Source of the DNA: Cryobacterium tagatosivorans
GTDB taxonomy: Bacteria > Actinomycetota > Actinomycetes > Actinomycetales > Microbacteriaceae
Reading direction: 5' to 3'
Length of the DNA: 64,000 bases
NCBI RefSeq assembly: GCF_004402215.1
Contig: NZ_SOEZ01000038.1
Span: 62,001 to 126,000 of the forward strand
The notes under the pieces are model-generated. The model was given only the letters and a program-made list of their open reading frames with translations. It ran no database searches and had not been told where the DNA came from. The position numbers were made by a program, and so were the translations under genes. Numbering within the stretch: the stretch's first letter is position 1; each line of letters opens with the position of its first letter. Below are positions 21,487 through 56,190 of the stretch, in pieces.

Positions 21487-22475
21487 TCGACCCTCCTCAG
21501 TCGTTCGGCGGCGCGGAGCCGCACGGATGTTGCGCGCGGGTTCAGCGCCTTTTCTTCGTCAGAGGCTTGTTCGGAGCCGCGGATCAAAAGTGCGAAGACC
21601 GGCTTGTGTTCGGGGAGTTCGACCGGCAGCCCGGCCGGGGCGCTCGAGCTGGACGCCTTGGCGAACACCTTCTTCACGATCCGGTCCTCGAGCGACTGGT
21701 AGGCCATGACGACGATGCGTCCGCCGACGGTGATCGCTTCGAGCGCGGCCGGGATGGCGCGTTCGAGGACGGCCAGTTCCTGGTTGACCTCGATGCGGAG
21801 TGCCTGGAAGACCCGCTTGGCGGGGTGCCCCATCCGCTGGACGGCCACCGGGGTCACCGCGGTGATCACGTCGACCAGCTGACCCGAGCGCACGAACGGG
21901 GTCTTCTCGCGGGCCTCGACGATGGCCTTCGCGTACCGGGCGGCGAGTTTTTCTTCGCCGTACTCCTGGAAGATGCGTCGCAGCTCCGCCTCGCTGTACT
22001 CGGCGATGATGCGCTCGGCGGTGAGGTCGGAGGTGCTGTCCATGCGCATGTCGAGCGGCGCATCCTTCGAGTAGGAGAAGCCGCGCTCGACCCGGTCGAT
22101 CTGGAGCGAGGAGACGCCGAGGTCGAACAGGACCCCGTCCACCTCGTCGATTCCGAGGCCTTCGAGCGCGTCACGGATGCCGTCGTAGACGGTGTGCACC
22201 AGGTGAACTCGCCCGTGGAACGGCTTCAGCCGCTCTTCGGCGATCGCGAGGGCCTCGAGGTCGCGGTCGAGCCCGACGAGGACCAGCCCGGGGAAACGCT
22301 GCAGCAGCGCTTCGGCGTGGCCGCCCATGCCGAGGGTGGCGTCGACGAGCACGGCGCCGGGCTTCTGCAGGGCGGGTGCGAGCAGCTCGATGCAGCGCTC
22401 GAGCAGGACTGGGGTGTGGATGTCGTTGATGGCCATAGTTCTTGCCGGGTCCGGTTCCTGGTTCCTGATCCCCAT
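21483..22475 (-). CDS. rsmH: 16S rRNA (cytosine1402-N4)-methyltransferase
   Basis: SAM-dependent methyltransferase acting on C1402 of 16S rRNA. The protein has 330 residues. [13 protein letters not shown] is followed by the SAM loop [43 protein letters not shown] and a C-terminal [12 protein letters not shown] 22475 has a good AGGAAAG ribosome site and is preferred. ATG 22436 ([10 protein letters not shown]...) would also give a normal protein but lacks a clear ribosome site. It is the second gene of the mra/dcw transcript. Confidence 0.94.
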
Positions 22476-22539
22476 CCATTCTTTCCTGCCACCGGGGAAG
22501 TGTGTCAGGCATGAACGGCTGGGAGTCAGGCGCCAGGGA

Positions 22540-22971
22540 CTAGAAGAGTCCCGGAATCACCTCCTCCGTTGTGTTGGCGAATGAGGTCTCTTGTTCGGCG
22601 AGGTAGGTCTCCCAGGCTTCGCTGTCCCAAATCTCGACTCGGCTGCCGGCGCCGATGACGGTGAGCTCGCGGTCGAGGCCCGCGTAGGCGCGGAGGTTTG
22701 CGGGGATGGTCACCCGGTTCTGCTTGTCCGGCGTCTCGGCGCTGGCGCCGGAGAGGAAGACGCGCAGGAAGTCGCGGCCCTGCTTGCTCGTGATGGGCGC
22801 CTGGCGGATCTTCTCGTGCAGCTCCTCGAATTCGCGCGAGCTGAACACGTAGAGGCAGTTCTCCTGGCCGCGCGTCATGACGATGCCGGTGGAGAGCTCG
22901 TCCCGGAACTTCGCCGGCAGGATGATGCGTCCTTTGTCGTCGAGCTTGGGGGCATAGGTTCCGAGAAACAT
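22540..22971 (-). CDS. mraZ: MraZ transcriptional regulator
   Basis: SpoVT/AbrB-fold regulator that binds repeated boxes in its own promoter and controls the mra/dcw operon. The protein has 143 residues and two MraZ repeats: [19 protein letters not shown] (1-19) and [15 protein letters not shown] (about 80-94). ATG 22971 follows AAAGGGGG; the frame is open further upstream, but that part has no ribosome site. Three operator-like GTGG boxes lie 40-65 bases upstream, consistent with autoregulation. Confidence 0.95.
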
Positions 22972-28221: not shown

Positions 28222-30138
<1,917 letters not shown>

Positions 30139-30163
30139 CGGCCCTCCCGTTCTACCGCGCCTT

Positions 30164-30228
30164 CCGCCGAACTGTGAGTTCGGCACCTTCGCGGCGGGCG
30201 GGAAGGTGCCCAACTCACGGTTCGGCGG
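30164..30228. repeat. Dispersed palindrome, copy 1 (convergent junction)
   Basis: Arms 30164-30190 and 30202-30228 are 27 bases each and pair at 25 of 27 positions around an 11-base loop. The core reads GAACTGTGAGTT, then CACCTTC. The element fills the gap between the kinase 3' end (30138) and the convergent HNH fragment (30268). It has no T run. Copies 2 and 3 lie at 35868 and 42312. Confidence 0.85.
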
Positions 30229-30267
30229 TGCCGAAAGGGTGGCATGGAAGAGCACCCGCTGGAAGGA

Positions 30268-30609
30268 TTACTCCTCTGAACGTGCCTCGTTGGCTCGCGT
30301 GGCCGTCGACCGGAGTTCGGCGCTGATCGCAGTGCCGATGGGGGTCTCCGGCTCTGTCACGTAGGTGTGCCCGGTCGGGGTGGTCCAGGTCAGGGTTCCC
30401 GTTCCGTCGGTGGCCTGGCTGACCTTCCAGCCGGCCTCGTGTTTGAGGGCGTGGCCGGCTGGGCAGAGGTGGGCGAGGTTATTGTGGTCGGTCCGCCCGC
30501 CGAACGCCCAGTCGAGGCCGTGGTCGATGTCGGAGCGGCTGGCCGCCCGGCTGCAGCCCGGGTGCCGGCAGGTGCCGTCGCGCACCTGCACCTCGTCGCG
30601 CCCCCTCAC
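30268..30609 (-). pseudogene. C-terminal remnant of a DUF222/13E12-type HNH endonuclease gene
   Basis: The 113-residue frame matches only the C-terminal end of these large proteins: VRDGTCRHPGCSRAASRSDI, DHGLDWAFGGRTDHNNLAHL and CPAGHALKHEAGW, i.e. the HNH zinc site plus the following strand. The usual several-hundred-residue DUF222 region is absent. The frame breaks at about 30610, exactly at a 68-base inverted-repeat element. It is probably non-functional, although the GTG at 30609 could in principle start a small peptide. Confidence 0.75.
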
Positions 30610-30613
30610 CCAG

Positions 30614-30681
30614 CGAGAGTCGCCGTTTCCGCCGAGAATCCCCGTTGCAACGGCGACTCTCGGCGGAAACGGCGACTCTCG
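30614..30681. repeat. Nested inverted repeat at the HNH remnant / aroG junction
   Basis: Arms 30614-30637 and 30658-30681 are perfect 24-base complements. The 20-base interval contains a perfect 12-base palindrome CCGTTGCAACGG (30642-30653). CGGCGACTCTCGG also occurs as a direct repeat inside the element. It begins 15 bases beyond the aroG stop and abuts the truncated end of the HNH gene. It may act as an aroG transcript end or be the scar of a small mobile element. Confidence 0.8.
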
Positions 30682-30696
30682 GCACCGAAACCGGCG

Positions 30697-32121
30697 CTAG
30701 CGGACCGCGAGCTCCTCCGCCACGAGGAACGCGAGTTCCAGGGACTGCATGTGGTTCAGGCGCGGGTCGCAGAGCGACTCGTAGCGGGTGGCGAGGGCAG
30801 CCTCGTCGATGTGCTCCGAGCCGCCCATGCACTCAGTGACGTCGTCACCGGTCAGCTCCACGTGGATGCCTCCCGGGTGCGTTCCGACCGCGCGGTGAGC
30901 CTCGAAGAAGCCCTTGACTTCGTCGACGACGTCGTCGAAACGGCGCGTCTTGTAGCCGGTCGGCGTGGTCACGCCGTTGCCGTGCATCGGGTCGGTGACC
31001 CAGAGCGGGTTCGCGTCGCTGGCCTTGACCGCCTCGAGCAGCGGCGGCAGGGCATCCCGGATCTTGCCGGCGCCCATCCGGGTGATGAAGGTCAGGCGGC
31101 CCGGCTCGCGATTGGGGTCGAGGACGTCGATCAGGCGCATCATGTCGTCGATCGAGGTCGTCGGGCCGAGCTTGACGCCGATCGGGTTGCGCACGCGGGA
31201 GAGGAAGTCGACGTGGGCGCTGTCGAGGTCGCGGGTGCGCTCCCCGATCCAGACGAAGTGCGCCGAGGTGTTGTACGGCGTTCCGGTCCGCGAGTCGATG
31301 CGCGTCATCGGCCGCTCGTAGTCCATCAGCAGGCCCTCGTGGCTGGTGTAGAACTCCGTTCGCCGCAGCGCCTCGAAGTCGGCGCCGCAGGCGATCATGA
31401 ACTTGATCGCCCGGTCGATCTCCTTGGCCAGCTTCTCGTAACGCTGGTTCGCCGGGTTCGCCGCGAAGCCCTGGTTCCAGCTGTGCACCTGGCGGAGGTC
31501 GGCGAATCCACCCTGGGTGAACGCACGGATGAGGTTCAGGGTCGAGGCGGCCGTGTGGTACCCCTTCACCAGGCGCGCCGGGTCGGCCTCGCGGGACTCC
31601 GGGGTGAAGTCGTAGCCGTTGACGATGTCGCCGCGGTAGGCCGGCAGCGTCACGTCGCCGCGGGTTTCGAAGTCGCTCGAGCGGGGCTTGGCGAACTGCC
31701 CGGCCATCCGCCCCATCTTCACGACGGGCATGGAGGCGCCATAGGTGAGCACGACGGCCATCTGCAGCACGGTCTTGACCCGGTTTCGGATCTGCTCGGC
31801 GGTGGCACCGCTGAAGGTCTCGGCGCAGTCGCCGCCCTGCAGCAGGAACGCCTCGCCGCGGGCGGCCTGGGCCAGCCGGTCGCGCAGGATGTCGACCTCG
31901 CCGGCGAAGACGAGCGGCGGCTGGGTCGCCAGTTCAGCAGATGCCGCGGCCACGGCCTCGGCATCGGGCCAGGTCGGCTGCTGCTTGATCGGAAGCGTGC
32001 GCCAATAGTCCAGGCCCGCGATCACTGCTTTATCTGCGACGACGACGGGTTCGGTGGGGTCTACCACGGGACGATTCCAGTTTCTCTTGGTGGCGCGCGT
32101 GAATTCGCGGGCCGGGGGCAT
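30697..32121 (-). CDS. aroG: Class II DAHP synthase
   Basis: First shikimate-pathway enzyme, condensing phosphoenolpyruvate and erythrose 4-phosphate. The protein has 474 residues of the class II (plant-like) type. Seen: LQGGDCAETF with the metal-binding Cys, GRMAGQFAKPRSSDFE, TSHEGLLMDYE, TRMGAGKIRDALPPLLEAVK, and metal ligands in WVTDPMHGNG and GGIHVELTGDDVTEC. It is the last gene of the set glucokinase-acyltransferase-aroG. Its M. tuberculosis counterpart is Rv2178c. Confidence 0.95.
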   Translation of the reverse strand: MPPAREFTRATKRNWNRPVVDPTEPVVVADKAVIAGLDYWRTLPIKQQPTWPDAEAVAAASAELATQPPLVFAGEVDILRDRLAQAARGEAFLLQGGDCAETFSGATAEQIRNRVKTVLQMAVVLTYGASMPVVKMGRMAGQFAKPRSSDFETRGDVTLPAYRGDIVNGYDFTPESREADPARLVKGYHTAASTLNLIRAFTQGGFADLRQVHSWNQGFAANPANQRYEKLAKEIDRAIKFMIACGADFEALRRTEFYTSHEGLLMDYERPMTRIDSRTGTPYNTSAHFVWIGERTRDLDSAHVDFLSRVRNPIGVKLGPTTSIDDMMRLIDVLDPNREPGRLTFITRMGAGKIRDALPPLLEAVKASDANPLWVTDPMHGNGVTTPTGYKTRRFDDVVDEVKGFFEAHRAVGTHPGGIHVELTGDDVTECMGGSEHIDEAALATRYESLCDPRLNHMQSLELAFLVAEELAVR

Positions 32122-32161
32122 GAGGGAAGGTCGGATCAGCGCTGAAACCGATTATCGAAGC

Positions 32162-32851
32162 TTACCGCGAAAGGTTTGCCCGCTTCTCTTTCACGCTGGT
32201 CGCGTAGACGTCCACGTACTCCTGGTCGCTGAGCGTGCGCAGTTCGTACATGAGTTCGTCGGTGATTGAGCGCAGGACGAACCGGTCACCCTCCATGCCC
32301 TCGAAACGACTGAAATCGAGCGGCTCGCCGATGATGATTCCGATGCGGCGCACCTTGGGGATCCGGGTGCCGGTCGGCATGGCCTTCTCGGTGTCGATCA
32401 TGGCGACCGGGATGACGGGGACGCCGGCCTCCAGCACCATGCGGGCCACGCCGGTGCGACCGCGGTACATCTTCGCGTCGGGGCTGCGGGTGCCCTCCGG
32501 GTAGATGCCCAGGACGCCGCCAGAGCGCAGCACGCGGAGCCCGGTGTTCAGGGAGTCCTCGGATGCCTTGCCGCCCGAGCGGTCGATCGGGAGCTGGCCG
32601 GTGGCCTTAAAGAACTGGCGCGTGGCCCAGCCCCTCAGCCCCTTGCCGGTGAAGTACTCGCTCTTGGCCAGGAAGACGACCCGCCGCGGCACGACCAGGG
32701 GCAGGAAGACCGAGTCGATGAAGGAGAGGTGGTTGCTGGCGAGGATGACACCGCCCTCTTTCGGGATGTTGTTCAGCCCGACGATCCACGGCCGGAACAG
32801 CGCAAGCAGGATCGGACCGACCACAATGTTCTTCATGATCCAATAGAACAT
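32162..32851 (-). CDS. plsC: 1-acyl-glycerol-3-phosphate acyltransferase family protein
   Basis: Membrane-associated acyltransferase of phospholipid synthesis. The protein has 229 residues. The catalytic NHxxxxD box is NHLSFID (about 41-47) and the substrate box is YPEGTRSPD (about 118-126). Hydrophobic segments lie at 5-20 and 132-150. It is co-directional with the ROK kinase (28-base gap) and aroG (40-base gap). The order matches M. tuberculosis Rv2182c relative to aroG. The acyl preference is unknown. Confidence 0.88.
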   Translation of the reverse strand: MFYWIMKNIVVGPILLALFRPWIVGLNNIPKEGGVILASNHLSFIDSVFLPLVVPRRVVFLAKSEYFTGKGLRGWATRQFFKATGQLPIDRSGGKASEDSLNTGLRVLRSGGVLGIYPEGTRSPDAKMYRGRTGVARMVLEAGVPVIPVAMIDTEKAMPTGTRIPKVRRIGIIIGEPLDFSRFEGMEGDRFVLRSITDELMYELRTLSDQEYVDVYATSVKEKRANLSR

Positions 32852-32879
32852 TGTTCGATTCCTTCCTGAGTTGGAAAGC

Positions 32880-33827
32880 CTACTGCTCGATGACGTGCTT
32901 GCGCGCGAGGTCGGCCGCGCCGACTACACCCGCGTCGTTGACGAGCTGGGCGGTGGTGAAGTCGGCCTCGGGGTGGTAGCCGCGAGCGGGCAGGTTGTCG
33001 AGGTAGGCCGCGCGAATCGGTTCGAGCAGGAGCTCGCCCGCGACGGCCACTCCCCCGCCGAAGACGAACACCTGCGGGTCCAGCACAGCGGCCAGGCTCG
33101 CACAGGCCTGGCCGAGCGCGCCGCCGAGCTGGCGCAGGGCCGCCAGCGCGCCGCCGTCGCCGGCCTGGATCAGCGCGCTCACGTCGACGCCGGTCAGCGT
33201 CCCGGTGCGAGCGCGTGCGGCGGCGAGGCCGAGGCCGATGCCGCCGGCATCCGCGAATTCGTTGGAAATGCGCAGCAGGGCACGGCCGGAGCCGTACTGC
33301 TCGATGCAGCCGTGGGCGCCGCAGCCGCAGGGCAGGCCGTTCGGGATGAGCCGCAGGTGGCCGAGCTCCGCGCCCACGCCGAATCCGCCGACGAAGAGGC
33401 GGTTGCGGGAGACGATGGCGCCGCCGACGCCCGTGCCGATGGTCAGGGTGACCATGTCGCTGTAGTTGCGGCCGGCGCCGAAGCAGAACTCGGCCCAGCC
33501 GGCCGCGTTCGCGTCGTTCTCGATGATGATCGGCAGGTCGAGCCGGGCCTCGAGCTTCTTCCGCAGGGGCTCATTACGCCAGTTGATGTTCGGCGCGTAA
33601 TACACGGTCGACTGGGCCGCGTCGATGAAACCGGCGGCGGCGACCCCCGCCGCGATGACGTCCTCCCCCTCGGAGAGGTTCCGGATCATCGCCACGACGG
33701 CGTCCTCGATTTCGGCCGGATCGCCCGCGGACGTCGGCGTCCGGTCGGAACGGATGATGTTCCCGGCTTCGTCGACCAGCGCCCCGGCGATCTTTGTGCC
33801 GCCGATGTCGATCCCAATGGCATGCAC
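32880..33827 (-). CDS. glk: ROK-family glucokinase
   Basis: Sugar kinase phosphorylating glucose. The protein has 315 residues. The N-terminal phosphate loop is GIDIGGTKIAGALVDE (residues 5-20), IENDANAAGWAEF carries the catalytic Asp, and the ROK zinc motif is CGCGAHGCIEQYGSGRAL. GTG 33827 (VHAIGIDIGG) is the natural start; the open frame extends upstream without a ribosome site. It is divergent from the acyl-CoA ligase. The phosphoryl donor (ATP or polyphosphate) is not evident. Confidence 0.9.
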   Translation of the reverse strand: MHAIGIDIGGTKIAGALVDEAGNIIRSDRTPTSAGDPAEIEDAVVAMIRNLSEGEDVIAAGVAAAGFIDAAQSTVYYAPNINWRNEPLRKKLEARLDLPIIIENDANAAGWAEFCFGAGRNYSDMVTLTIGTGVGGAIVSRNRLFVGGFGVGAELGHLRLIPNGLPCGCGAHGCIEQYGSGRALLRISNEFADAGGIGLGLAAARARTGTLTGVDVSALIQAGDGGALAALRQLGGALGQACASLAAVLDPQVFVFGGGVAVAGELLLEPIRAAYLDNLPARGYHPEADFTTAQLVNDAGVVGAADLARKHVIEQ

Positions 33828-33965
33828 GAGGGCACCTTTCGTCGGCGAGCGTTGTGGAAACCTGATCCGCCGCATCCGGAGCGGACACCGCAGTACCCAA
33901 TAGAGTGTAGTAAATCAGCATCCCGCCGGGCGAAACACCCGCCCATCCGGCCCAAAGGAGTCGCC

Positions 33966-35798
33966 GTGCGACAGTTTGATGTTCCCGCCATTGTTCCTGC
34001 CGACCCGGCAGCCAATGTGACGGACCTGCTCGTCGATCGCCTGAAGGCGACGCCCAATATGGTTCTGTTCTCCCTGCCGGTGAACGGCGAGTGGCTTCCG
34101 GTCACCACCGCCGAGTTCCACGCCCAGGTGATCGCCCTGGCCAAGGGGTTCGTCGCGGCGGGCATCGAGCCCGGCGACAAGATCGGCCTGATGTGCAAGA
34201 CCCGGTACGAGTGGACGCTCGTCGACTTCGCCGCCTGGTTCGCCGGCGCCGTGCTCGTCCCGGTCTACGAGACCAGCTCCCCCTCGCAGATCCAGTGGAT
34301 CCTCGGCGACTCGGACGCGAAGGCGCTCATCCTCGAAACGGCGGACCACTTCGCGCGCTTCGACGAGGTGCACCCGGAACTGCCGTTCATCACGACCGTG
34401 TGGCAGATCGGCCTCGGCGACCTGGACAAGCTCGCCGCGAGCGGCACGGCTGTCCCGGATGCCGAGATCGAGCGTCGACGCGGACTCGCCGTCGGAAGCG
34501 ACATCGCCACCCTGATCTACACCTCGGGTTCCACCGGAAGGCCCAAGGGCTGCGTGTTGACGCACGCCAACTTCGTCGAGACCTGCCGCAATGCCGCAGT
34601 CGCCCTCAAGGAGGTCCTCACCGACGAGAACGGTGCATCCACCCTCCTGTTCATCACGACCGCCCACGTGTTCGCCCGGTTCATCTCGGTGCTCTGCGTT
34701 CACGCCGGCGTGCGCGTCGGCCACCAGCCCGACACCAAGCAGCTCCTCCCGGCGCTCGGCAGCTTCAAGCCCACCTTCCTCCTCGCGGTGCCTCGGGTGT
34801 TCGAGAAGGTCTACAACTCGGCCGAGCAGAAGGCCGAAGCCGGCGGCAAGGGCAAGATCTTCCGCGCGGCCGCCGAGGTCGCCGTCGCCCATTCGCAGGC
34901 GCTCCAGGCCGGCCAGGCCATCCCCCTGGTGACGAAGATCAAGTTCGCCCTCTTCGACCGGCTCGTCTACAGCAAGCTGCGCGCCGTCATGGGCGGCAAC
35001 GTGAAGTACGCGGTGTCCGGATCCGCCCCGCTCGGCGCGCACCTCGGTCACTTCTTCCACAGCCTGGGAATCGTCATCCTCGAGGGCTACGGCCTGACCG
35101 AGACCACCGCCCCGGCCACGGTCAACCTGGCCACCAAGTCCAAGATCGGCACGGTGGGCCCGGCCCTCCCCGGCGTCTCCGTGCGGGCCATGGACGACGG
35201 AGAAATCCAGGTCAAGGGCGTCAACGTCTTCAAGGAGTACTGGAAGAACCCCGCCGCCACGCTCGGCACGTTCGAGGACGGCTGGCTGAAGACCGGCGAC
35301 ATCGGCGCCTTCGACGAGGAGGGCTTCCTCACCATCACCGGGCGCAAGAAGGAGCTCATCGTCACGGCCGGCGGCAAGAACGTCGCCCCGGCGGCCCTCG
35401 AGGACCCGATCCGGGCAAACTCCCTCGTCGGCCAGGTCGTCGTGGTCGGCGACCGGAAGCCCTTCATCGCCGCCCTGGTCACCCTCGATCCGGACATGCT
35501 GCCGGTGTGGCTGAACAACAACAAGGAAGACGCCGGGATGTCCCTGGCCGAGGCCTCCGTGAACAAGGCGGTGCTCGCCGAGGTGCAGCGTGCCGTCGAT
35601 CACGCCAACGAGCACGTGTCGCGGGCCGAGTCGATCCGCAAGTTCATCGTGCTGCCGACGGAGCTCACGGAGGCCAACGGCTACCTCACGCCAAAGCTCA
35701 GCATCAAGCGCGACCTGATCCTCAAGGACTTCGCGGACACGATCGAGGGCCTGTACGAGGGAGCCCCGGTCACCGAGGGCTTCTCGATCCGGGACTGA
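33966..35798 (+). CDS. fadD15: Long-chain fatty-acid--CoA ligase, FadD15-like
   Basis: ANL-family adenylating enzyme activating fatty acids to acyl-CoA. The protein has 610 residues. P-loop TLIYTSGSTGRPKGCVLTHA (about 179-198), EGYGLTETTAPATVNLA, WLKTGDIGAFDEEGFLTITG and the C-terminal RKKELIVTAGGKNVAP are present. GTG 33966 follows AAAGGAG at 5 bases, which settles the start. An 11-base sequence is tandemly duplicated across the stop codon. The gene corresponds to Rv2187 in position and type. Confidence 0.92.
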   Translation: MRQFDVPAIVPADPAANVTDLLVDRLKATPNMVLFSLPVNGEWLPVTTAEFHAQVIALAKGFVAAGIEPGDKIGLMCKTRYEWTLVDFAAWFAGAVLVPVYETSSPSQIQWILGDSDAKALILETADHFARFDEVHPELPFITTVWQIGLGDLDKLAASGTAVPDAEIERRRGLAVGSDIATLIYTSGSTGRPKGCVLTHANFVETCRNAAVALKEVLTDENGASTLLFITTAHVFARFISVLCVHAGVRVGHQPDTKQLLPALGSFKPTFLLAVPRVFEKVYNSAEQKAEAGGKGKIFRAAAEVAVAHSQALQAGQAIPLVTKIKFALFDRLVYSKLRAVMGGNVKYAVSGSAPLGAHLGHFFHSLGIVILEGYGLTETTAPATVNLATKSKIGTVGPALPGVSVRAMDDGEIQVKGVNVFKEYWKNPAATLGTFEDGWLKTGDIGAFDEEGFLTITGRKKELIVTAGGKNVAPAALEDPIRANSLVGQVVVVGDRKPFIAALVTLDPDMLPVWLNNNKEDAGMSLAEASVNKAVLAEVQRAVDHANEHVSRAESIRKFIVLPTELTEANGYLTPKLSIKRDLILKDFADTIEGLYEGAPVTEGFSIRD

Positions 35799-35813
35799 TC
35801 CGGGACTGATCCG
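35786..35813. repeat. 11-bp tandem duplication spanning the fadD15 stop
   Basis: GATCCGGGACT occurs at 35786-35796 and 35797-35807, followed by a partial third unit GATCCG to 35813. The first unit contains the last codons and, across the junction, the TGA stop. It looks like a recent slippage duplication. Confidence 0.85.
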
Positions 35814-35867
35814 CGGGGGTCACCCCGTGCTCGGTCTCGCCGGCCTCGAATACCGGGGTCGGCCTAT

Positions 35868-35930
35868 CGCCGAACCGTGAGTTTGGCACCTTCGTCGGGC
35901 TCCTGAAGGTGCCAAACTCACGGTTCGACG
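35868..35930. repeat. Dispersed palindrome, copy 2 (convergent junction)
   Basis: Arms 35868-35893 and 35905-35930 (26 bases each) pair at 25 of 26 positions around an 11-base loop. The core GTGAGTTTGGCACCTTC is shared with copy 3. It lies between the convergent fadD15 and def stops (35798 and 35976), in a 177-base gap with no other feature apart from the tandem repeat. Confidence 0.87.
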
Positions 35931-35975
35931 GTGGGGTGATCGAGCATCCGCAGGCTCGAGCACAGCGGGGGCGGT

Positions 35976-36467
35976 TTAGAACCAGGCGGACTCGCGGACT
36001 TCCCTCATCGCTGCCCGGCGGTTCTCTTTGTCCAGCCGGTCGAGGTAGAGCAGTCCGTCGAGGTGATCGGTTTCGTGCTGCAGCGCCTGGGCCATGACGC
36101 CGGTGCCCGAGAGTTCGACCGTCTCTCCCTCGAGATCGGTACCGACGACCCGGGCGAACGGATACCGCTTCGTCGGGTACCAGAGGCCGGGAACGGAGAG
36201 GCAGCCCTCGTCGACCAGCTCCGGCTCACCGGACAGTTCGACGATCGACGGGTTGAGGATGTAGCCGACCTCGCCGTCGACGTTGTAGCTGAACGCGCGC
36301 AGGTTCACCCCGATCTGCGAGGCCGCCACCCCGGCGCGGCCCGGCAGGCGGACGCTGTCGAGCAGGTCGGTGACGAGCCCGCGGACCCGGTCGTCGACGG
36401 TGAGGATCGGGTCGGAGACGGTCTTCAGGACCGGGTCTCCCAGGAGACGGATCTGGCGCTCGGGCAC
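35976..36467 (-). CDS. def: Peptide deformylase
   Basis: Metalloenzyme removing the formyl group from nascent N-termini. The protein has 163 residues. Motif 1 is GVAASQIGV (the usual GxGxAAxQ is here GRAGVAASQ), motif 2 is [12 protein letters not shown] with the metal Cys, and motif 3 is QHETDHLDG with the two metal His and the catalytic Glu. The start is GTG. It lies 36 bases downstream of the MinD-like gene, so the two may be co-transcribed. Confidence 0.94.
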
Positions 36468-36503
36468 AGGGGACTTCCAATGATCGGGGCGGCGGCTGCT
36501 TCG

Positions 36504-37817
36504 TTACTTGCTGCGGTTGGCCGGGAGGCCCTCGACGACCAGCGCCGCGAGGGTCCGGGCCGCCAGCTGGGTGATCGGCCGCAGGTCCTTGAAAGACACG
36601 ACGCTGCCGGCGGCCAGCTGGGGGTCGTACGGAATGCGCACGATTTCCCGCACCCGTGACCGGAAGTGCGACTCGATCTCCTCGAGTTTGACCAGGTTGG
36701 TGCCCTGCGTGGCCGTGTTCAGCGCGACGATGGCGTTCCGGACGAGGTCGCCGTAGCCGTTGGCCTCGAGCCAGGTGAGGGTCTCGGAGGCCAGCCGGGC
36801 CTCGTCGACGCTGCCGCCGGAGACGATCACGACCGCGTCCGCTCGCCGCAGCGTGGCGCGCATGACCGAGTGCACGATGCCGGTGCCGCAGTCGGTGAGC
36901 ACCATCGAGTAGTAGCGGGCGGCTAGGTCGGCAACGACGTTGTAGTCGTCTTCGTCGAACGCCTCGGAGAGGAGCGGATCGGTGTCGGAGGCCAGGATGT
37001 CGAGCCTCGTTTCATCCCGGGACACGAGCGCCGAGAAATCCGTGAAGTTGCCGATCGACGCGGCCTTGGTCACGACATCGCGGACCGTCGACCTGGTCTG
37101 CTTGCTCACCCGCTCCGAGAGGGTTCCGCGGTCGGGGTTCGCGTCGACGGCGATGATTCGGTCTTCCCGGGCATCGGCCAGCGCCATCCCGAGCAGCGTG
37201 GTCACCGTGGTCTTGCCGACGCCGCCCTTGCGGGTGAGGATCGGCACGAAGCGCGTGCCGCCCTCGAACTGCTTGCGGATGCGTTCGGTCATTTCGTCGT
37301 GCGCGATCACGCGGGCCGAGTCGCCGAGGTTCACGAGGTGCAGCGTGGCGTCGTAGACCAGCCGGTTGAAGCCGCCGCGCGGCGGGCGGCGGGTCTGGCG
37401 GTTGACCGCCAGCAGGCGGTCGGAGGTCAGCATGTTCGCCGACTCCGGAGCGCCGCCGTCGCGCGAGCGTCCCTGGGGGGCGCTCTCGCCCCGGGTGACC
37501 GGGACGCTGATCTCGACGCTGCGCGTGGCCGGCGACGACGCTGCGGGCGCGGCCGGCGTCGCCGCGGCATCCCGGCTGGTGCGTGCGGCAGGCGTGGCCG
37601 GCGTGGCCGGTGGCGTTCGGGTCACCGACCGTCGCGGGGCGTCCGACACCTCGATCGGGATGCTCAGGCTCTCCGGGAGAGCCGAAGCCATGTTCTCGAC
37701 CGTGTGCGGCGGCAGTTCGCTGTGGTACTCGTCAGTCGGCGGGGCGGCCGGGTCGGCGCCCGGTTTTGCCGTGGGTCGCCGTCCGACGCTCTCGTCGTCC
37801 CTGCGTGTGTCTGGCAA
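36504..37817 (-). CDS. MinD/ParA-like ATPase with long disordered N-terminus
   Basis: The protein has 437 residues. About 125 Pro/Ala/Thr/Arg-rich residues precede a deviant Walker A ATPase: FVPILTRKGGVGKTTVTTLL (P-loop about 196-204), switch VDANPDRGTL and VLTDCGTGIVHSVM. The architecture resembles EspI-like and septum-site MinD-like proteins of actinobacteria. The start is TTG 37817 with GAGGAGA upstream; an internal ATG at residue 43 is the alternative. It lies 37 bases after pyc. Its partner and cargo are unknown. Confidence 0.83.
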   Translation of the reverse strand: MPDTRRDDESVGRRPTAKPGADPAAPPTDEYHSELPPHTVENMASALPESLSIPIEVSDAPRRSVTRTPPATPATPAARTSRDAAATPAAPAASSPATRSVEISVPVTRGESAPQGRSRDGGAPESANMLTSDRLLAVNRQTRRPPRGGFNRLVYDATLHLVNLGDSARVIAHDEMTERIRKQFEGGTRFVPILTRKGGVGKTTVTTLLGMALADAREDRIIAVDANPDRGTLSERVSKQTRSTVRDVVTKAASIGNFTDFSALVSRDETRLDILASDTDPLLSEAFDEDDYNVVADLAARYYSMVLTDCGTGIVHSVMRATLRRADAVVIVSGGSVDEARLASETLTWLEANGYGDLVRNAIVALNTATQGTNLVKLEEIESHFRSRVREIVRIPYDPQLAAGSVVSFKDLRPITQLAARTLAALVVEGLPANRSK

Positions 37818-37854
37818 CAGTCCAGTCTCCTCGTCGGTGGATCGAGGACCTATC

Positions 37855-40800
37855 CTACCGTGGGCGCACGACGACGAGCAGGTCGCCGGCGTCGACCTGC
37901 TGGGTCTTGGGGATCGCGACGCGTTCGACGAAGCCGTCGATGGGGCTGGTGATCGCCGCTTCCATCTTCATGGCCTCGATGGATGCCACGCTCTGGCCGG
38001 CCTTGACGTGGGCGCCTTCCTCGACCTGCAGGGTGACCACGCCGGAGAACGGGGCGGCGACCTGGCCGGGCTGGTTCGCGTCGGCCTTCTCGGCGACCTT
38101 CGTCTCGACCGTGATGCTCCGGTCCCGCACGAACACGGGCCGGAGCTGGCCGTTGAGGATGGTCATCACCGTGCGCATGCCCTTGTCGTCGGCGTCGCCG
38201 ATGGCCTCGAGCCCGGCGTAGAGCCGCACACCCTTCTCGAGCTCGATGACGTGTTCCTGGCCCTGCTTGAGGCCGTAGAGGTAGTCGACGGTGTCGATGA
38301 CGGACAGGTCGCCGTACTGCTCCCGGCTATGTTCGAACTGCCGGGTCGGCGCGGCGAAGAGCAGCTGGTTGAGCATCGCCCGGCGGGTGCGGCTGTCACC
38401 GGCCAGCGCGGCCCGTTCCTCCGCGGTGATCTCGGTGACCCCGATCCGGATGGTCTTCCCGGCGAGGACCTTGCTGCGGAACGGCTCCGGCCAGCCGCCG
38501 GGCAGATCGCCCAGCTCCCCGGCCATGAAACCGACGACCGAGTCGGGCACGTCGTACTTGTCCGGGTTCTCGGCGAAATCGGCCGGGTCCGCGCGGACCG
38601 CGGCGAGGTACAGGGCCAGGTCGCCGACGACCTTGGACGACGGGGTCACCTTGGGCACCCGGCCGAGGATCGTGTTCGCCGCGGCGTACATGTCCTCGAT
38701 CAACTCGAAATGGTCCGCCAGGCCCAGCGCGACCGCCTGGGTGCGGAGGTTGGAGAGCTGACCGCCGGGGATCTCGTGCTTGTACACCCGCCCCGTCGGC
38801 GACGCCAGGCCCGACTCGAACGGCCGGTACACGTGCCGCACGGCCTCCCAGTACGGCTCCAGGTCACACACGTTCTGCAACGACAGCCCGGTGTCGCGTT
38901 CCGTGTGCGCCAGCGCGGCGACGAGGGACGACGCGGACGGCTGGCTGGTCGTGCCGGCCAGCGGGGCGCTGGCCACGTCGACGGCGTCCGCCCCGGCGCG
39001 GGCAGCCGCGAGGAGCGTGGCCAGCTGGCCGCCGGGGGTGTCGTGGGTGTGCACGTGCACCGGCAGGTCGAACCGGTCCCGGAACGCGGTCACGAGCTTC
39101 TCCGCCGCCGCCGGCCGGAGCAACCCGGCCATGTCCTTGATCGCCAGGACATGCGCGCCCGAGTCCACGATCTGCTCGGCCAGGCGCAGGTAGTAATCCA
39201 GCGTGTACAGGTTCTCCGCCGGGTCGAGCAGGTCCCCGGTGTAACAGACGGCCACCTCGGCCAGGCTCGTGCCCGTGGCCAGGACCGCGTCGATCGCGGG
39301 GCGCATCTGCGACACGTCGTTCAACGCGTCGAAGATCCGGAAGATGTCCACGCCGGTGTCCGACGCCTCACGCACGAACGCGTCGGTCACCTCCGTCGGG
39401 TAGGGCGTGTAGCCGACCGTGTTGCGGCCGCGGAGGAGCATCTGGATGTTGATGTTCGGCAGCGCCTCCCGCAGCGCCGCGAGGCGCTCCCACGGGTCCT
39501 CGCCGAGGAACCGGAGCGCAACGTCATAGGTCGCCCCGCCCCACGCCTCGACCGAGAGCAACTGCGGAGTCAACCGGGCCACATACGGCGCCGCCGCAAC
39601 GAGGTCGCGGGTGCGCACCCGCGTCGCCAGCAACGACTGGTGCGCGTCCCGGAACGTCGTGTCCGTCACCGCCAGGGCCGTCTGCGCGCGGAGCGCGGCC
39701 GCGAACTTCTGCGGGCCGAGCTCGAGCAGCCGCTGCCGCGACCCGGCCGGGGCCGGCACGGCCAGGTCGAGCACCGGCAGCTTCTCCGCCGGGTGCACGT
39801 TGGTCGTCGGGGCGCCGTTGGGCTGGTTCACGGTGACGTCGGCGAGCCAGTTGATGATCTTCGTGCCACGGTCCTTCGACGGACGACCGCGGAGCAGGTG
39901 CGGACGCTCGTCGATGAACGAGGTGCTCAGGTCCCCGGCGGCGAAGTCCGGGTCGTCGAGCACGGCCTGGAGGAAGGGGATGTTCGTCGACACCCCGCGG
40001 ATGCGGAACTCCGCCAGCGCCCGCTTGGACCGGGTGACGGCCGACGCGTAGTCGCGGCCGCGGCAGGTGAGCTTGGAGAGCATGGAGTCGAAGTGCGGGC
40101 TGATCTGCGCGCCCGGGTTGATCGTCCCGCCGTCCATCCGGATGCCCGCGCCGCCCGGCGACCGGTAGGTGGTGATCTTGCCCGTGTCGGGCCGGAACCC
40201 GGCGTTGGGGTCCTCGGTCGTGATCCGGCACTGCAGGGCCACGCCGCGGAGCTGGATCTTGTCCTGGGTCAGGCCCAGCTCGGCGAGGGTCTGCCCGGCC
40301 GCGATCCGCATCTGCGACTGCACCAGGTCCACATCGGTGACCTCCTCGGTCACCGTGTGCTCGACCTGGATCCGCGGGTTCATCTCGATGAACACGTGCT
40401 GCCCGGCCCGCTCCCCCACCGTGTCCAGCAGGAACTCGACCGTGCCCGCGTTGACATAACCGATCGACCGGGCGAACGCGACGGCATCCTTGTAGAGCCG
40501 CTGCCGGATCTCGTCGGACAGATTCGGCGCCGGCGCGATCTCGATCACCTTCTGGTGACGGCGCTGCACCGAGCAGTCCCGTTCGAACAGGTGCACCGTC
40601 TCCCCGGTCGAATCCGCGAGGATCTGCACCTCGATGTGCCGCGGGCGGAGCACCGCCTGCTCGAGGAACATGGTCGCGTCACCGAACGCGCTCTTCGCCT
40701 CGCGCATTGCCTCCTCAAGGGAACCGCGCAGCTCCGCGGCCGAATCGACCCGGCGCATCCCGCGCCCGCCGCCGCCGGCGACGGCCTTCGCGAACAACGG

Positions 40801-41259
40801 GAAACCGATCTCGGCCGCCTGGCCGATCAACTCGTCCACGTCCAGCGACGGACGTGTGGACTGCAGCACCGGCACCCCCGCGGCGATCGCGTAATCCTTC
40901 GCGGTGACCTTGTTGCCGGCCATTTCCAGCACGCTCTTGCCCGGACCGATGAACGTGATCCCGGCCGCGGCGGCCGCCTCGGCCAGTTCCGGGTTCTCGG
41001 ACAGGAAACCGTAGCCCGGGTAGATGGCGTCCGCGCCGGACTCCTTCGCCACCCGGATGATCTCGCTCACGTCCAGGTACGCGCGCACCGGGTGCCCGGG
41101 CTCGCCGATCTGGTACGCCTCATCGGCCTTCAGCCGGTGCAGGGAACTGCGGTCCTCATAGGGGAACACCGCCACCGTCTTGGCACCGAGTTCATAGGCC
41201 GCTCGGAACGCGCGAATCGCGATCTCTCCACGGTTGGCAACGAGGATTTTGGAGAACAT
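37855..41259 (-). CDS. pyc: Pyruvate carboxylase
   Basis: Biotin enzyme converting pyruvate to oxaloacetate. The protein has 1134 residues, full length. The N-terminal biotin carboxylase part starts MFSKILVANRGEIAIR and has AVAGGGGRGMRRV and FIEMNPRIQVEHTVTE. The central carboxyltransferase has DTTFRDAHQSLLATRVRTRD. The C-terminal carrier domain has the biotinyl lysine in EAMKMEAAI, about 35 residues from the end. It is divergent from parA (77-base gap). Confidence 0.97.
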   Translation of the reverse strand: MFSKILVANRGEIAIRAFRAAYELGAKTVAVFPYEDRSSLHRLKADEAYQIGEPGHPVRAYLDVSEIIRVAKESGADAIYPGYGFLSENPELAEAAAAAGITFIGPGKSVLEMAGNKVTAKDYAIAAGVPVLQSTRPSLDVDELIGQAAEIGFPLFAKAVAGGGGRGMRRVDSAAELRGSLEEAMREAKSAFGDATMFLEQAVLRPRHIEVQILADSTGETVHLFERDCSVQRRHQKVIEIAPAPNLSDEIRQRLYKDAVAFARSIGYVNAGTVEFLLDTVGERAGQHVFIEMNPRIQVEHTVTEEVTDVDLVQSQMRIAAGQTLAELGLTQDKIQLRGVALQCRITTEDPNAGFRPDTGKITTYRSPGGAGIRMDGGTINPGAQISPHFDSMLSKLTCRGRDYASAVTRSKRALAEFRIRGVSTNIPFLQAVLDDPDFAAGDLSTSFIDERPHLLRGRPSKDRGTKIINWLADVTVNQPNGAPTTNVHPAEKLPVLDLAVPAPAGSRQRLLELGPQKFAAALRAQTALAVTDTTFRDAHQSLLATRVRTRDLVAAAPYVARLTPQLLSVEAWGGATYDVALRFLGEDPWERLAALREALPNINIQMLLRGRNTVGYTPYPTEVTDAFVREASDTGVDIFRIFDALNDVSQMRPAIDAVLATGTSLAEVAVCYTGDLLDPAENLYTLDYYLRLAEQIVDSGAHVLAIKDMAGLLRPAAAEKLVTAFRDRFDLPVHVHTHDTPGGQLATLLAAARAGADAVDVASAPLAGTTSQPSASSLVAALAHTERDTGLSLQNVCDLEPYWEAVRHVYRPFESGLASPTGRVYKHEIPGGQLSNLRTQAVALGLADHFELIEDMYAAANTILGRVPKVTPSSKVVGDLALYLAAVRADPADFAENPDKYDVPDSVVGFMAGELGDLPGGWPEPFRSKVLAGKTIRIGVTEITAEERAALAGDSRTRRAMLNQLLFAAPTRQFEHSREQYGDLSVIDTVDYLYGLKQGQEHVIELEKGVRLYAGLEAIGDADDKGMRTVMTILNGQLRPVFVRDRSITVETKVAEKADANQPGQVAAPFSGVVTLQVEEGAHVKAGQSVASIEAMKMEAAITSPIDGFVERVAIPKTQQVDAGDLLVVVRPR

Positions 41260-41336
41260 TCAGACCTTTCGAGCGCGGCGCGGCACACAGCTGGCGGTTA
41301 GGTTCTCTAAGACTAGTGAAGGTAACGTTGTTGATT

Positions 41337-42149
41337 GTGCATGTACTCAGCGTCAGCTCCCTCAAAGGAGGCGTAGGAAAGACCACGGTGACCCTTGGTC
41401 TTGCTTCTGCTGCCTTCGCCCGCGGTGTGCGCACCCTCGTAGTGGATCTCGATCCCCAGTCGGACGTGTCGACCGGGATGGATATCCAGGTCGCCGGGCA
41501 CCTCAATGTCGCCGATGTGCTGGCCTCTCCCAAGGAGAAGACCGTGCGCGCCGCGATCGCCCCGAGCGGCTGGACGCGCGGCCGCCAGGGCACCATCGAC
41601 GTCATGATCGGCAGCCCCTCGGCCATCAATTTCGATGGCCCGCACCCCAGCATCCGCGACATCTGGAAGCTCGAGGAAGCGCTCTCGACCGTCGAGAAGG
41701 AGTACGACCTCGTGCTCATCGACTGCGCCCCGTCGCTCAACGCCCTCACCCGCACGGCCTGGGCCGCCAGCGACCGCGTCGCCGTGGTGACCGAGCCCGG
41801 CCTGTTCTCCGTGGCCGCCGCCGACCGCGCCCTGCGCGCCATCGAGGAGATCCGCCGCGGGCTCAGCCCGCGCCTCCAGCCGCTGGGCATCATCGTCAAC
41901 CGTGCCCGCACGGCGTCGATGGAGCACCAGTTCAGGATCAAGGAACTTCGCGACATGTTCGGCCCGCTCGTGCTCAGCCCGCAGTTGCCCGAGCGCACCT
42001 CGCTGCAGCAGGCCCAGGGCGCCGCGAAGCCGCTGCACATCTGGCCGGGCGAGAGCGCCCAGGAGATGGCCGGCTACTTCGACCAGCTGCTCGAACGCGT
42101 GCTGCGCACGGCTCGCATCGGCGAGTACGCCGAACAGCCCGCGAACTAG
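41337..42149 (+). CDS. Orphan ParA-family ATPase
   Basis: The protein has 270 residues. The deviant Walker A is SSLKGGVGKTTVTLGL (K10 signature lysine, P-loop about 10-17), with DLDPQSDVSTGMD and VLIDCAPSLNALTRTA. GTG 41337 gives the compact leader MHVLSVSSLKGG; GTG 41316 adds seven residues. No parB lies beside it, so this is probably not the chromosome-partition pair. Downstream come degenerate 13-bp repeats and palindrome copy 3. The role is unknown; positioning of a cell-envelope or regulatory protein is possible. Confidence 0.87.
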   Translation: MHVLSVSSLKGGVGKTTVTLGLASAAFARGVRTLVVDLDPQSDVSTGMDIQVAGHLNVADVLASPKEKTVRAAIAPSGWTRGRQGTIDVMIGSPSAINFDGPHPSIRDIWKLEEALSTVEKEYDLVLIDCAPSLNALTRTAWAASDRVAVVTEPGLFSVAAADRALRAIEEIRRGLSPRLQPLGIIVNRARTASMEHQFRIKELRDMFGPLVLSPQLPERTSLQQAQGAAKPLHIWPGESAQEMAGYFDQLLERVLRTARIGEYAEQPAN

Positions 42150-42170
42150 CCCCAGGAACCGGCGCCAGGG

Positions 42171-42239
42171 ACGAGCCCCAGGAGCTTGCGCCCGGGGACT
42201 CGAGCCCGGAACCAGAGCCCGGGATCAGAGCCCCCGGCG
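42171..42239. repeat. Degenerate 13-bp tandem repeats downstream of parA
   Basis: Units of 13 bases run at 42188-42200, 42201-42213, 42214-42226 and 42227-42239. They share the core GAGCCCGG with variation; a weaker unit lies at 42171-42183. The tract falls in the 262-base gap between parA and the merR gene, which otherwise contains only the palindrome at 42312-42382. Confidence 0.6.
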
Positions 42240-42311
42240 CCCGTTCCGGCGGCCCCGGACTGTTACGCCGCGTGTCAGGCCTCCGCGCCTTGGGCGTGTC
42301 CCGCACCCGCA

Positions 42312-42382
42312 GCCTCGCCGAACTGTGAGTTTGGCACCTTCCGGGTGCCCGCGAAGGTGCCAAACTCACAGTTCGGCGAGGC
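42312..42382. repeat. Dispersed palindrome, copy 3 (perfect arms, convergent junction)
   Basis: Arms 42312-42341 and 42353-42382 are perfect 30-base complements around an 11-base loop (42342-42352). The inner arm reads GTGAGTTTGGCACCTTC as in copy 2. It lies between the convergent parA and merR stops. The perfect pairing of 30 bp suggests recent insertion or selection on structure. No T run follows on either strand. Confidence 0.9.
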
Positions 42383-42411: not shown

Positions 42412-42963
42412 CTAGGAGATCTTGCGGGCCGTGCGGCGCTGGGCGAGTTCGTCGGCGGGGTCGACGGCCTGGGTGTTGAGTTCGACCAGGCTGGTCTCCA
42501 CCTCGCGGAGCACCTTGCCGACGGCGATGCCGAAAACGCCCTGGCCTCGGCTGACCAGGTCGATGACCTCGTCGTTGGAGGTGCAGAGGTAGACGCTGGC
42601 GCCGTCGCTCATCAGGGTGGTCTGGGCCAGGTCGCTCACGCCGGATTCCCGGAGCTGGTTGACGGCGGTGCGGATCTGCTGGAGCGAGATGCCGGTGTCG
42701 AGGAGACGTTTGACGAGCTTGAGGACGAGGATGTCGCGGAATCCGTAGAGCCGCTGCGAACCGGATCCGGCGGCCCCGCGAACGGTGGGTTCCACCAGTT
42801 CGGTGCGAGCCCAGTAATCGAGCTGGCGGTAGCTGATGCCGGCGGCGCGAGCGGCGACCGCTCCGCGATACCCCGAGTTCTCGTCGAGTTCGGGCATTCC
42901 GTCGGTGAAGAGCAGTCCAAGACCGTAGCGTGAGGCGTCATCACGGGGATTGAGTTCACTCAT
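42412..42963 (-). CDS. MerR-family transcriptional regulator (Rv1830-like)
   Basis: The protein has 183 residues. The MerR winged helix has GISYRQLDYWARTELVEPTV (about 42-61) and RLYGFRDILVLKLVKRLLDTG, followed by a coiled coil and a small C-terminal domain. The N-terminal 30 residues precede the HTH and lack a known fold. The position near ftsR and garA matches the Rv1827-Rv1830 block. Its targets are unknown; the mycobacterial homologue has been associated with cell division control. Confidence 0.87.
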   Translation of the reverse strand: MSELNPRDDASRYGLGLLFTDGMPELDENSGYRGAVAARAAGISYRQLDYWARTELVEPTVRGAAGSGSQRLYGFRDILVLKLVKRLLDTGISLQQIRTAVNQLRESGVSDLAQTTLMSDGASVYLCTSNDEVIDLVSRGQGVFGIAVGKVLREVETSLVELNTQAVDPADELAQRRTARKIS

Positions 42964-55713: not shown

Positions 55714-56112
55714 ATGGATCCCGTCACCACCGCGCGCGTGGACAGCTGGACCTGGGCGGTGCGGATGTTCCGCACTCGTTCCCAGGCCACGGCCGCGTGC
55801 CGGGCCGGCCACGTCCGGGTCAACGGTGACAAGGTCAAATCGGCCCAGGCCGTGCGCGTTGGCGACGAGGTGCGGGTGCGCAGCGCCGGCTTCGACCGGG
55901 TGCTCGTCGTGGCCCGGATCGTCTCCAAACGCGTCGGCGCCCCGGTGGCGGCCGAATGCTACGTGGACAAGACCCCGCCTCCCCCGCCGCGTGAGGAGGT
56001 CGCGCTCGTGCCCATGCGCGACCGCGGGGCCGGCCGGCCGACCAAGCGCGAACGCCGCGACATCGACAAGCTGCGCGGCGCCTCGCGCACCGACCTTCCC
56101 GACGACGACTAG
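55714..56112 (+). CDS. S4-domain RNA-binding protein (Hsp15-like)
   Basis: The protein has 132 residues. The N-terminal S4 fold is VDSWTWAVRMFRTRSQATAA then CRAGHVRVNGDKVKSAQAVR. A Pro-rich linker (PPPPPRE) leads to a basic tail with TKRERRDIDKLRG. Hsp15-type proteins rescue stalled 50S subunits; that role here is inference. It lies 23 bases after crtEb and could be on the same transcript. Confidence 0.87.
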   Translation: MDPVTTARVDSWTWAVRMFRTRSQATAACRAGHVRVNGDKVKSAQAVRVGDEVRVRSAGFDRVLVVARIVSKRVGAPVAAECYVDKTPPPPPREEVALVPMRDRGAGRPTKRERRDIDKLRGASRTDLPDDD

Positions 56113-56122
56113 AGCATCCGCG

Positions 56123-56190
56123 CAACTGTTCCCCAGCCGGACAACTGTTGCCGGCGCACCGGGAACAGTCGTCCGAATTGGCGACAGTTG
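56123..56190. repeat. Imperfect 32-bp inverted repeat at a convergent junction
   Basis: Arms 56123-56154 and 56159-56190 match at 25 of 32 positions around a 4-base loop (CGCA). The arm ends read CAACTGT and the inner part ACTGTT-CCGG. It fills the 94-base gap between the S4 gene and the convergent oxidoreductase. It is not related in sequence to the three-copy palindrome. No T run follows. Confidence 0.75.

Follow-up and report, generated by a model that had tools for sequence, protein, structure and literature searches.

A 64,000-nt window of the Cryobacterium tagatosivorans genome (contig NZ_SOEZ01000038.1, positions 62,001 to 126,000) contains three copies of a palindrome, here called F1, that is 63 bp long and dispersed beside gene 3′ ends. 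The genome holding the window (G000, 3.78 Mb) carries 51 copies, and all 50 that could be scored adjoin the 3′ end of a gene. We document the number, position, architecture, flanks and conservation of F1, and we propose, as a possibility that falls short of probable, that it works as a two-way transcript end. A role in ending or protecting transcripts is suggested by sequence; a two-way 3′-end element is the best fit on account of the position, the hairpin and the flanks.

Size and architecture of the F1 family

A search of all of G000 with the arm core gave forty-nine forward and fifty-two reverse matches, against one and zero for the reversed control. After three single-arm matches (L039:2592, L047:3227, L073:2971) were set aside as chance, these resolve to 51 near-identical 63-bp palindromes. 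The whole-genome search found no convincing single-arm copies, and for that reason the idea that F1 is an uptake sequence was dropped. The three palindromes of the initial annotation, with their common core and 11-nt centre, are real, but the 'three-copy' family proved to be a small part of the whole.

Each element consists of two 26-bp arms, with the consensus CGCCGAACYGTGAGTTYGGCACCTTC and its reverse complement, flanking an 11-nt centre. The centre measures 11 nt in 49 of the 51 copies and 10 nt in the other two, and one further copy has a 1-nt arm deletion. Twenty-four of the 26 arm columns are nearly invariant across the 51 copies, and two pyrimidine (Y) columns are variable. Within the window, the core pattern (at most three mismatches) matched six times, compared with 0.17 expected from shuffles, and folding of the three copies gave z-scores of −4.7, −9.7 and −10.3 relative to shuffles. 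F1 shares several features with repetitive extragenic palindromic (REP) elements and with REPINs, being a dispersed extragenic palindrome with inverted conserved ends and a spacer whose length is kept (51 copies).

At least five further palindrome families are present in G000: F2 (twenty-three copies), F3 (eleven), F4 (four), F5 (four) and F6 (three). These were found by motif searches and by scanning for palindromes whose arms match at 18 or more of 26 positions, and the counts cover the examined G000 loci. The apex ACCTTC-N11-GAAGGT is common to F1, F2 and F3. A lone strong palindrome near position 732 of L034 (CGATCCCCCTCAAAAAGGGAA...) lies outside all of the named families.

Position relative to genes

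Genes were called with a home-made codon-usage caller rather than a trained annotator. By these calls, thirty-two F1 copies in G000 lie between convergent genes, eighteen between co-directional genes (9 ++ and 9 −−), none between divergent genes and one at a contig end. A gene 3′ end adjoins 50 of the 50 scorable copies, at a median distance of 23 nt. Among 359 background gene pairs from the same loci, 132 are −−, 105 are ++, 62 are +− and 60 are −+. The absence of divergent copies (0/50) has a binomial probability of 1e-4 against this local background, and the convergent excess (32 copies, compared with 62/359 background pairs) is highly significant (P = 3e-13). In the eighteen co-directional cases, the upstream 3′ end is closer to F1 than the next start is (P = 0.012).

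F1 had been described as lying only between convergent genes, which fails given the eighteen co-directional copies. A distribution without regard to gene orientation would have counted against the idea of a convergent terminator; with no divergent copy among the 50, the broader idea of a 3′-end element survives. Divergent copies were also missing from C. psychrotolerans, a close relative (0/27), and from G003, G018 and G021 (0/22, top-scoring copies only). F2, in the same genome, is not so restricted, with 5 of 22 copies divergent compared with 0 of 49 F1 copies in the same tabulation (P = 0.002), and tolerance of insertion is therefore by itself a weak explanation for the position of F1. Copies in the closed genome G006 are not significantly clustered along the chromosome (P = 0.13). 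At three loci (L035, L038, L049), the TGA within the arm (GTGAG) is the stop codon of the adjoining called gene; this is the case for both convergent genes in L049.

The copies in the window

All three window copies sit between facing gene 3′ ends, as first described. To the right of copy 1 comes a short HNH-like remnant, and the next intact gene has the same direction. Of the six convergent gaps in the window, four contain a palindrome (F1 in three, F6 in one); the other two gaps are just 27 and 52 nt long. The refined boundaries of the copies and their neighbours are as follows.

28222–30138, + strand: Ser/Thr kinase–PASTA gene, left neighbour of F1 copy 1
30139–30164, + strand: stretch from the kinase stop codon to F1 copy 1; on average, such stretches are rich in C and poor in G
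30165–30227, no strand: F1 copy 1, between the Ser/Thr kinase–PASTA gene and the DUF222-HNH-like remnant
30328–30645, − strand: remnant similar to the C-terminal portion of a DUF222-HNH (13E12-type) protein (tblastn, 56% identity; no Pfam match)
30615–30680, no strand: F5 palindrome, between the HNH-like remnant and the class-II DAHP synthase gene (further copies at L031, L115 and L237)
30697–32121, − strand: class-II DAHP synthase gene, beside the F5 palindrome
34017–35798, + strand: AMP-binding enzyme gene, left of F1 copy 2
35868–35930, no strand: F1 copy 2, between the AMP-binding enzyme and peptide deformylase genes
35976–36467, − strand: peptide deformylase gene, right of F1 copy 2
41316–42149, + strand: ParA/MinD-like ATPase gene, left of F1 copy 3
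42316–42378, no strand: F1 copy 3, with perfect arms reaching 42312–42382, between the ParA/MinD-like ATPase and MerR-like genes
42412–42963, − strand: MerR-like gene, right of F1 copy 3
56125–56188, no strand: F6 palindrome, between two convergent genes with their ends at 56112 (+) and 56207 (−) (further copies at L041 and L238 found with a permissive motif)

None of the window palindromes matched an Rfam family above the gathering score. The mraW RNA motif (RF01746) alone did so in the window, at 22446–22544 on the − strand.

Conservation of the arms

We compared the number of matches between the two arms of each copy with the number obtained when right arms were re-dealt among copies. In G000, 1240 matches were observed and 1234.3 expected (P = 0.12, one indel copy excluded), although the few variable F1 columns limit the power of the test in this genome. 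Results were similar for G006 (921 matches compared with 915.1 expected, P = 0.27) and borderline for C. psychrotolerans (715 compared with 711.2, P = 0.04–0.05). When the thirty-nine non-redundant G006 copies were divided by column, columns 1–19 showed 646 matches for 649 expected (P = 0.72). Pairing exceeded chance in columns 20–26 (174 compared with 158.2, P = 0.009), one of four blocks tested. The two Y columns of F1 vary independently between arms, and no covariation beyond that of shuffles was found across the whole F1 alignment.

Arm pairing had been taken initially as a sign of selection on structure. Since re-dealt arms match about equally well, no within-copy selection is visible over most of the arm, and selection for paired RNA is unsupported in G000 and in columns 1–19 of G006. 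Conservation would seem to act on the sequence of each half-site and not on pairing alone, because outer arms within a copy match no better than those of different copies. Judged from these alignments, what is kept in the outer arm is evidently the sequence; in the apex, pairing is kept too, at least in G006.

The alternative that F1 is a full palindrome with a trivial loop was rejected, as centre columns 27–31 pair at chance level (138 compared with 145.3 expected in forty-eight G000 copies; 67 compared with 78.9 in twenty-eight C. psychrotolerans copies). At the closing position of the centre (columns 27 and 37), 28 of the 48 G000 copies have G/G or C/C, as if pairing were avoided.

Related palindromes in other genomes

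Searches with the R1 model scored 133–150 candidates per genome (35 in the 149-genome family sample, where filters were stricter), so that copy counts outside G000 are lower bounds. At E ≤ 0.001, matches were found in twenty-two of twenty-four congeners and in one of fifteen genomes from other families in the order. At 1e-5, six of the 149 other sampled genomes of the family matched; these come from five other genera and include G146, with at least 31 strand matches. Two congeners within the family sample (G012 and G186) had no R1 match at 1e-5.

Copy number differs greatly among congeners, and the arms are often species-specific, with a recurrent outer part (CGCCGAACYGTGAG or CGCGAACYGTGAG) and a variable inner part (RAGCATCCGT in G003, AAGCMCC in G006 and GTGCACSCTT in G018). 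C. psychrotolerans, in which counterparts of G000 loci are about 90 per cent identical, is the sole named organism found with exact paired F1 arms. It has thirty-eight sites whose weaker strand scores at least 49 bits.

Of thirty-three C. psychrotolerans F1 entries, thirty-one map to G000 F1 sites, twenty-nine of them distinct; two of the thirty-one are ambiguous, and L105 and L227 are apparently one site. Seven of the thirty-one were excluded for indels or poor fit, among them L222 and L223, which share window copy 1 as their counterpart, probably via HNH paralogues. This leaves twenty-four gapless pairs, whose arms differ at 5 of 384 outer positions, 12 of 768 core non-Y positions and 33 of 96 Y positions. 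The entries L084–L112 were chosen by exact arm cores, which biases conservation upward in columns 10–26 and 38–54 and makes the outer columns the fairer measure; a count of syntenic sites with a palindrome (30/32) is biased likewise and was not used. The aligned 30-nt flanks of twenty-seven pairs are 72 per cent identical (about 28 per cent differing), compared with 63 per cent for random pairs. The centres of twenty-eight orthologous pairs match at 8.0 of 11 positions, compared with 6.8 when re-paired. The F1 copies shared with C. psychrotolerans are evidently old and in place, their arms kept while the surroundings drift.

Shared sites are also found in more distant congeners. Copies occupy G000 F1 sites, by at least one flank, in 5 of 44 cases for G006, 1 of 11 for G021 (plus one weak), 2 of 6 for G003 and 3 of 5 for G018. 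Three further congener copies are at G000 sites that hold a different family: L163 corresponds to the F3 site of L116 by both flanks, and L142 and L174 correspond by one flank each to L036 (F4) and L071 (F2). Some of these distant sites were matched by a single flank, and flanks matching other loci at 68–70 per cent identity (likely paralogues) were not counted. Between close species, the palindrome-free sites at L046:6444 and L063:5908 were considered as clean empty sites but are not clean insertions.

Flanks and terminators

On the same strand, the nearest 25 nt are C-rich on the 5′ side of F1 and G-rich on the 3′ side for any gene orientation. Averaged over the seventy-two F1-bearing 3′ ends, the sense-strand C/G ratio is 3.1 from 0 to 15 nt past the stop codon and 2.6 from 15 to 30 nt. 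Control 3′ ends have ratios of 1.1–1.5; from 0 to 15 nt, the 31 convergent controls average 1.5 and the 178 co-directional ones 1.2. In the final 100 nt of coding sequence, the ratio is 1.2–1.5 at F1 ends compared with 0.9–1.2 in controls. None of the 102 sides of the 51 F1 copies has five or more T in 10 nt, which bears out the initial statement that, having no T run, the elements are not classic intrinsic terminators. Hairpins with a U-tract were found at 3 of 128 control 3′ ends in G000.

A proposed two-way transcript end and the points against it

In form, the elements resemble REP or REPIN palindromes that have settled at gene ends, but with no REP transposase alongside. If F1 is a two-way transcript end, then, since its two strands read alike, RNA polymerase coming from either gene would first cross a stretch rich in C and poor in G, followed by a hairpin of some 26 bp or longer. 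The hairpin would pause the polymerase, and with Rho the transcript would end. It may then block 3′-to-5′ exonucleases, and convergent neighbours would thereby be kept from running into each other. Because half-site conservation is so strict, something probably also reads or recopies the sequence: a factor acting on all copies, either a binding protein or copy-to-copy transfer, would keep the half-site beyond what a hairpin needs.

Several known systems resemble such an element in part. The U-less ('I-shaped') terminators of mycobacteria are, in the available part of PMC12288462, hairpins that lack a U-tract and lie no more than about 50 bp from stop codons. Rho-dependent terminators with a hairpin pause site have C>G RNA followed by a hairpin, as described in the accessible portion of PMC6407284; F1 differs in that its strong C>G stretch is about 30 nt, compared with a C>G region of about 78 nt, and is symmetric on both strands. 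Canonical U-tract terminators are apparently few in Streptomyces and M. tuberculosis, where Rho or U-poor hairpins matter more (PMC12207403 and PMC12288462, in the parts available), although PMC12288462 also cites work in which a U-tract was required. The TRIT hairpin of M. tuberculosis (RNIE) is reportedly a dispersed conserved terminator motif. F1 stands apart from TRIT and from I-shaped hairpins as a 63-bp palindrome whose sequence is conserved, which comes in several families and whose C-rich and G-rich flanks are symmetric.

A number of observations weigh against the two-way transcript end. In G006, thirty-eight of forty-three copies are at gene 3′ ends and five of forty-three are divergent, and the C-rich/G-rich symmetry is present even in the five divergent copies. 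One of four F4 copies is divergent; for F3 this number is zero of nine, with one copy scored inside a called gene. The arm-pairing results for G000 and for columns 1–19 of G006 show no preference for the partner arm. The strong C>G stretch, at about 30 nt, falls below the length expected of a Rho utilization (rut) site, and Rho of M. tuberculosis recognises purine-rich sequences according to the portion of PMC12288462 available. A canonical terminator and a palindrome coexist at L044, L052, L061 and L122 (clear cases) and at L060 and L128 (weaker), so the palindrome is not needed for termination at those ends. Finally, G020 has just two large palindromes in 400 kb and lacks one at the sites of L052 and L122, where the edges are blurred. 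At the L052 site a hairpin stands beside the gene end, and at the L122 site the aligned sequence has neither hairpin nor palindrome.

Alternative explanations

One alternative, which we consider unlikely though still a serious contender, is that F1 acts as double-stranded DNA, each 26-bp arm being a half-site for a putative dimeric DNA-binding protein that holds gene ends as a polymerase roadblock or as a nucleoid or supercoil anchor. Gyrase acts at bacterial interspersed mosaic elements (BIMEs) in E. coli, a parallel for such an anchor. The near-invariance of the arms with their two independent pyrimidine columns, the kept 11-nt centre and a flank symmetry that disregards gene orientation (and so suits a DNA site as well as an RNA reading) are all in keeping with this. 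The discrete arm variants of G006 (GTTAA, GAAAA, GCTAA, CTTAA) are likewise unmatched within copies, being the same on both arms in 7 of 42 copies compared with 10.2 expected (2 of 44 unparsed). However, 26 bp makes a long half-site for a single dimer, and the apical part of the G006 arms covaries; in G000 the few variable columns limit the power of the comparison.

It is rather doubtful that F1 is a selfish, REPIN-like palindrome moved in trans by a putative enzyme and tolerated just past gene ends. REPs, BIMEs and REPINs are also dispersed extragenic palindromes near 3′ ends, with inverted conserved ends, a variable spacer of kept length and several families per genome (PMC3733652 and PMC3116915, in the parts available). 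The architecture is that of REPINs as the available text of PMC3116915 gives it. By the same kind of partial source (PMC3733652), REPs too are found in convergent and co-directional spaces near 3′ ends, with those of the CGTC type having no transposase of their own. Variable copy number among congeners, several families per genome and species-specific arms would also suit mobility.

Against this, the Y1 (REP-associated tyrosine) transposase, PF01797, was found in none of 31 genomes of the genus, G000 included, with control matches in 5 of 14 known genomes. The suggestion of a REP/BIME-like element moved by a distant transposase thus stands for its architecture and not for the mover. The F1 consensus lacks a GTAG/CGTC tag. 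A conserved arm sub-hairpin is limited to both F1 variants (z = −4.8 and −3.3) and, more weakly, F3 (−2.6), and was missing from the other seven of ten folded arms. No target-site duplication was detected (across the 51 copies, flanks of 3, 5 and 8 nt compared at five offsets gave zero matches), and plasmid, phage and viral collections, including IMG/VR, had no match to the palindrome. REP-type elements are mostly proteobacterial, whereas F1 is actinobacterial, has no convincing single-arm copies and, in G000, never lies between divergent genes. Common compensatory changes are ascribed to REPINs in the source as available, and F1 in G000 does not show them; old F1 copies also keep their arms while flanks drift.

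Very unlikely is that F1 is a by-product of DUF222/HNH (13E12-type) genes that use the palindrome as a target or end. At seven G006 loci (L150, L151, L152, L144, L156, L157, L158) we observed a unit of about 1.7 kb with a DUF222-HNH-like gene and an F1-like palindrome at its 5′ end, where the palindrome is one end of the unit and the DNA beyond it differs. DUF222 genes also adjoin 3 of 38 C. psychrotolerans sites and one G000 F1 copy, in addition to the window remnant, and four more (C62, C68, C73, C74) lie 2.4–4.9 kb from an F1 copy in G000, commoner than expected. The other listed G006 DUF222 genes show no such nearness. Though promising in G006, a general partnership was set aside and kept as a minor rival, since the 4–5-kb stretches around twenty other DUF222 matches in G000 and G006 hold no F1-type palindrome (one F5 and one F2), every listed DUF222 gene of G022 lies more than 5 kb from any listed palindrome, and the side is inconsistent (the 5′ side in G006 but the 3′ side in the other cases). 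Ordinary intrinsic terminators are highly improbable despite a strong hairpin soon after stop codons, as the sides lack U-tracts, the downstream sequence is G-rich and the arms are conserved as sequence.

More speculatively, the arm may be the half-site of a putative lineage-specific DNA-binding protein that clamps gene ends, stops polymerase from both sides and co-evolves with its half-site, so that species would rewrite their copies in place and even swap families at the same gene end.

Significance

In the parts available, the literature searched held no description of these Cryobacterium palindromes. How transcripts end without U-tracts in GC-rich actinobacteria is an open question, and G000 itself has few canonical terminators. 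A sequence-conserved palindrome restricted to 3′ ends would give a defined element for testing transcript ends. F1 would also be a REP-like population that lacks the transposase believed to maintain elements of this kind. Its species-specific versions, some at shared sites, may make concerted change of a non-coding repeat traceable site by site. If the half-site clamp is real, it would be a bacterial counterpart of eukaryotic roadblock terminators.

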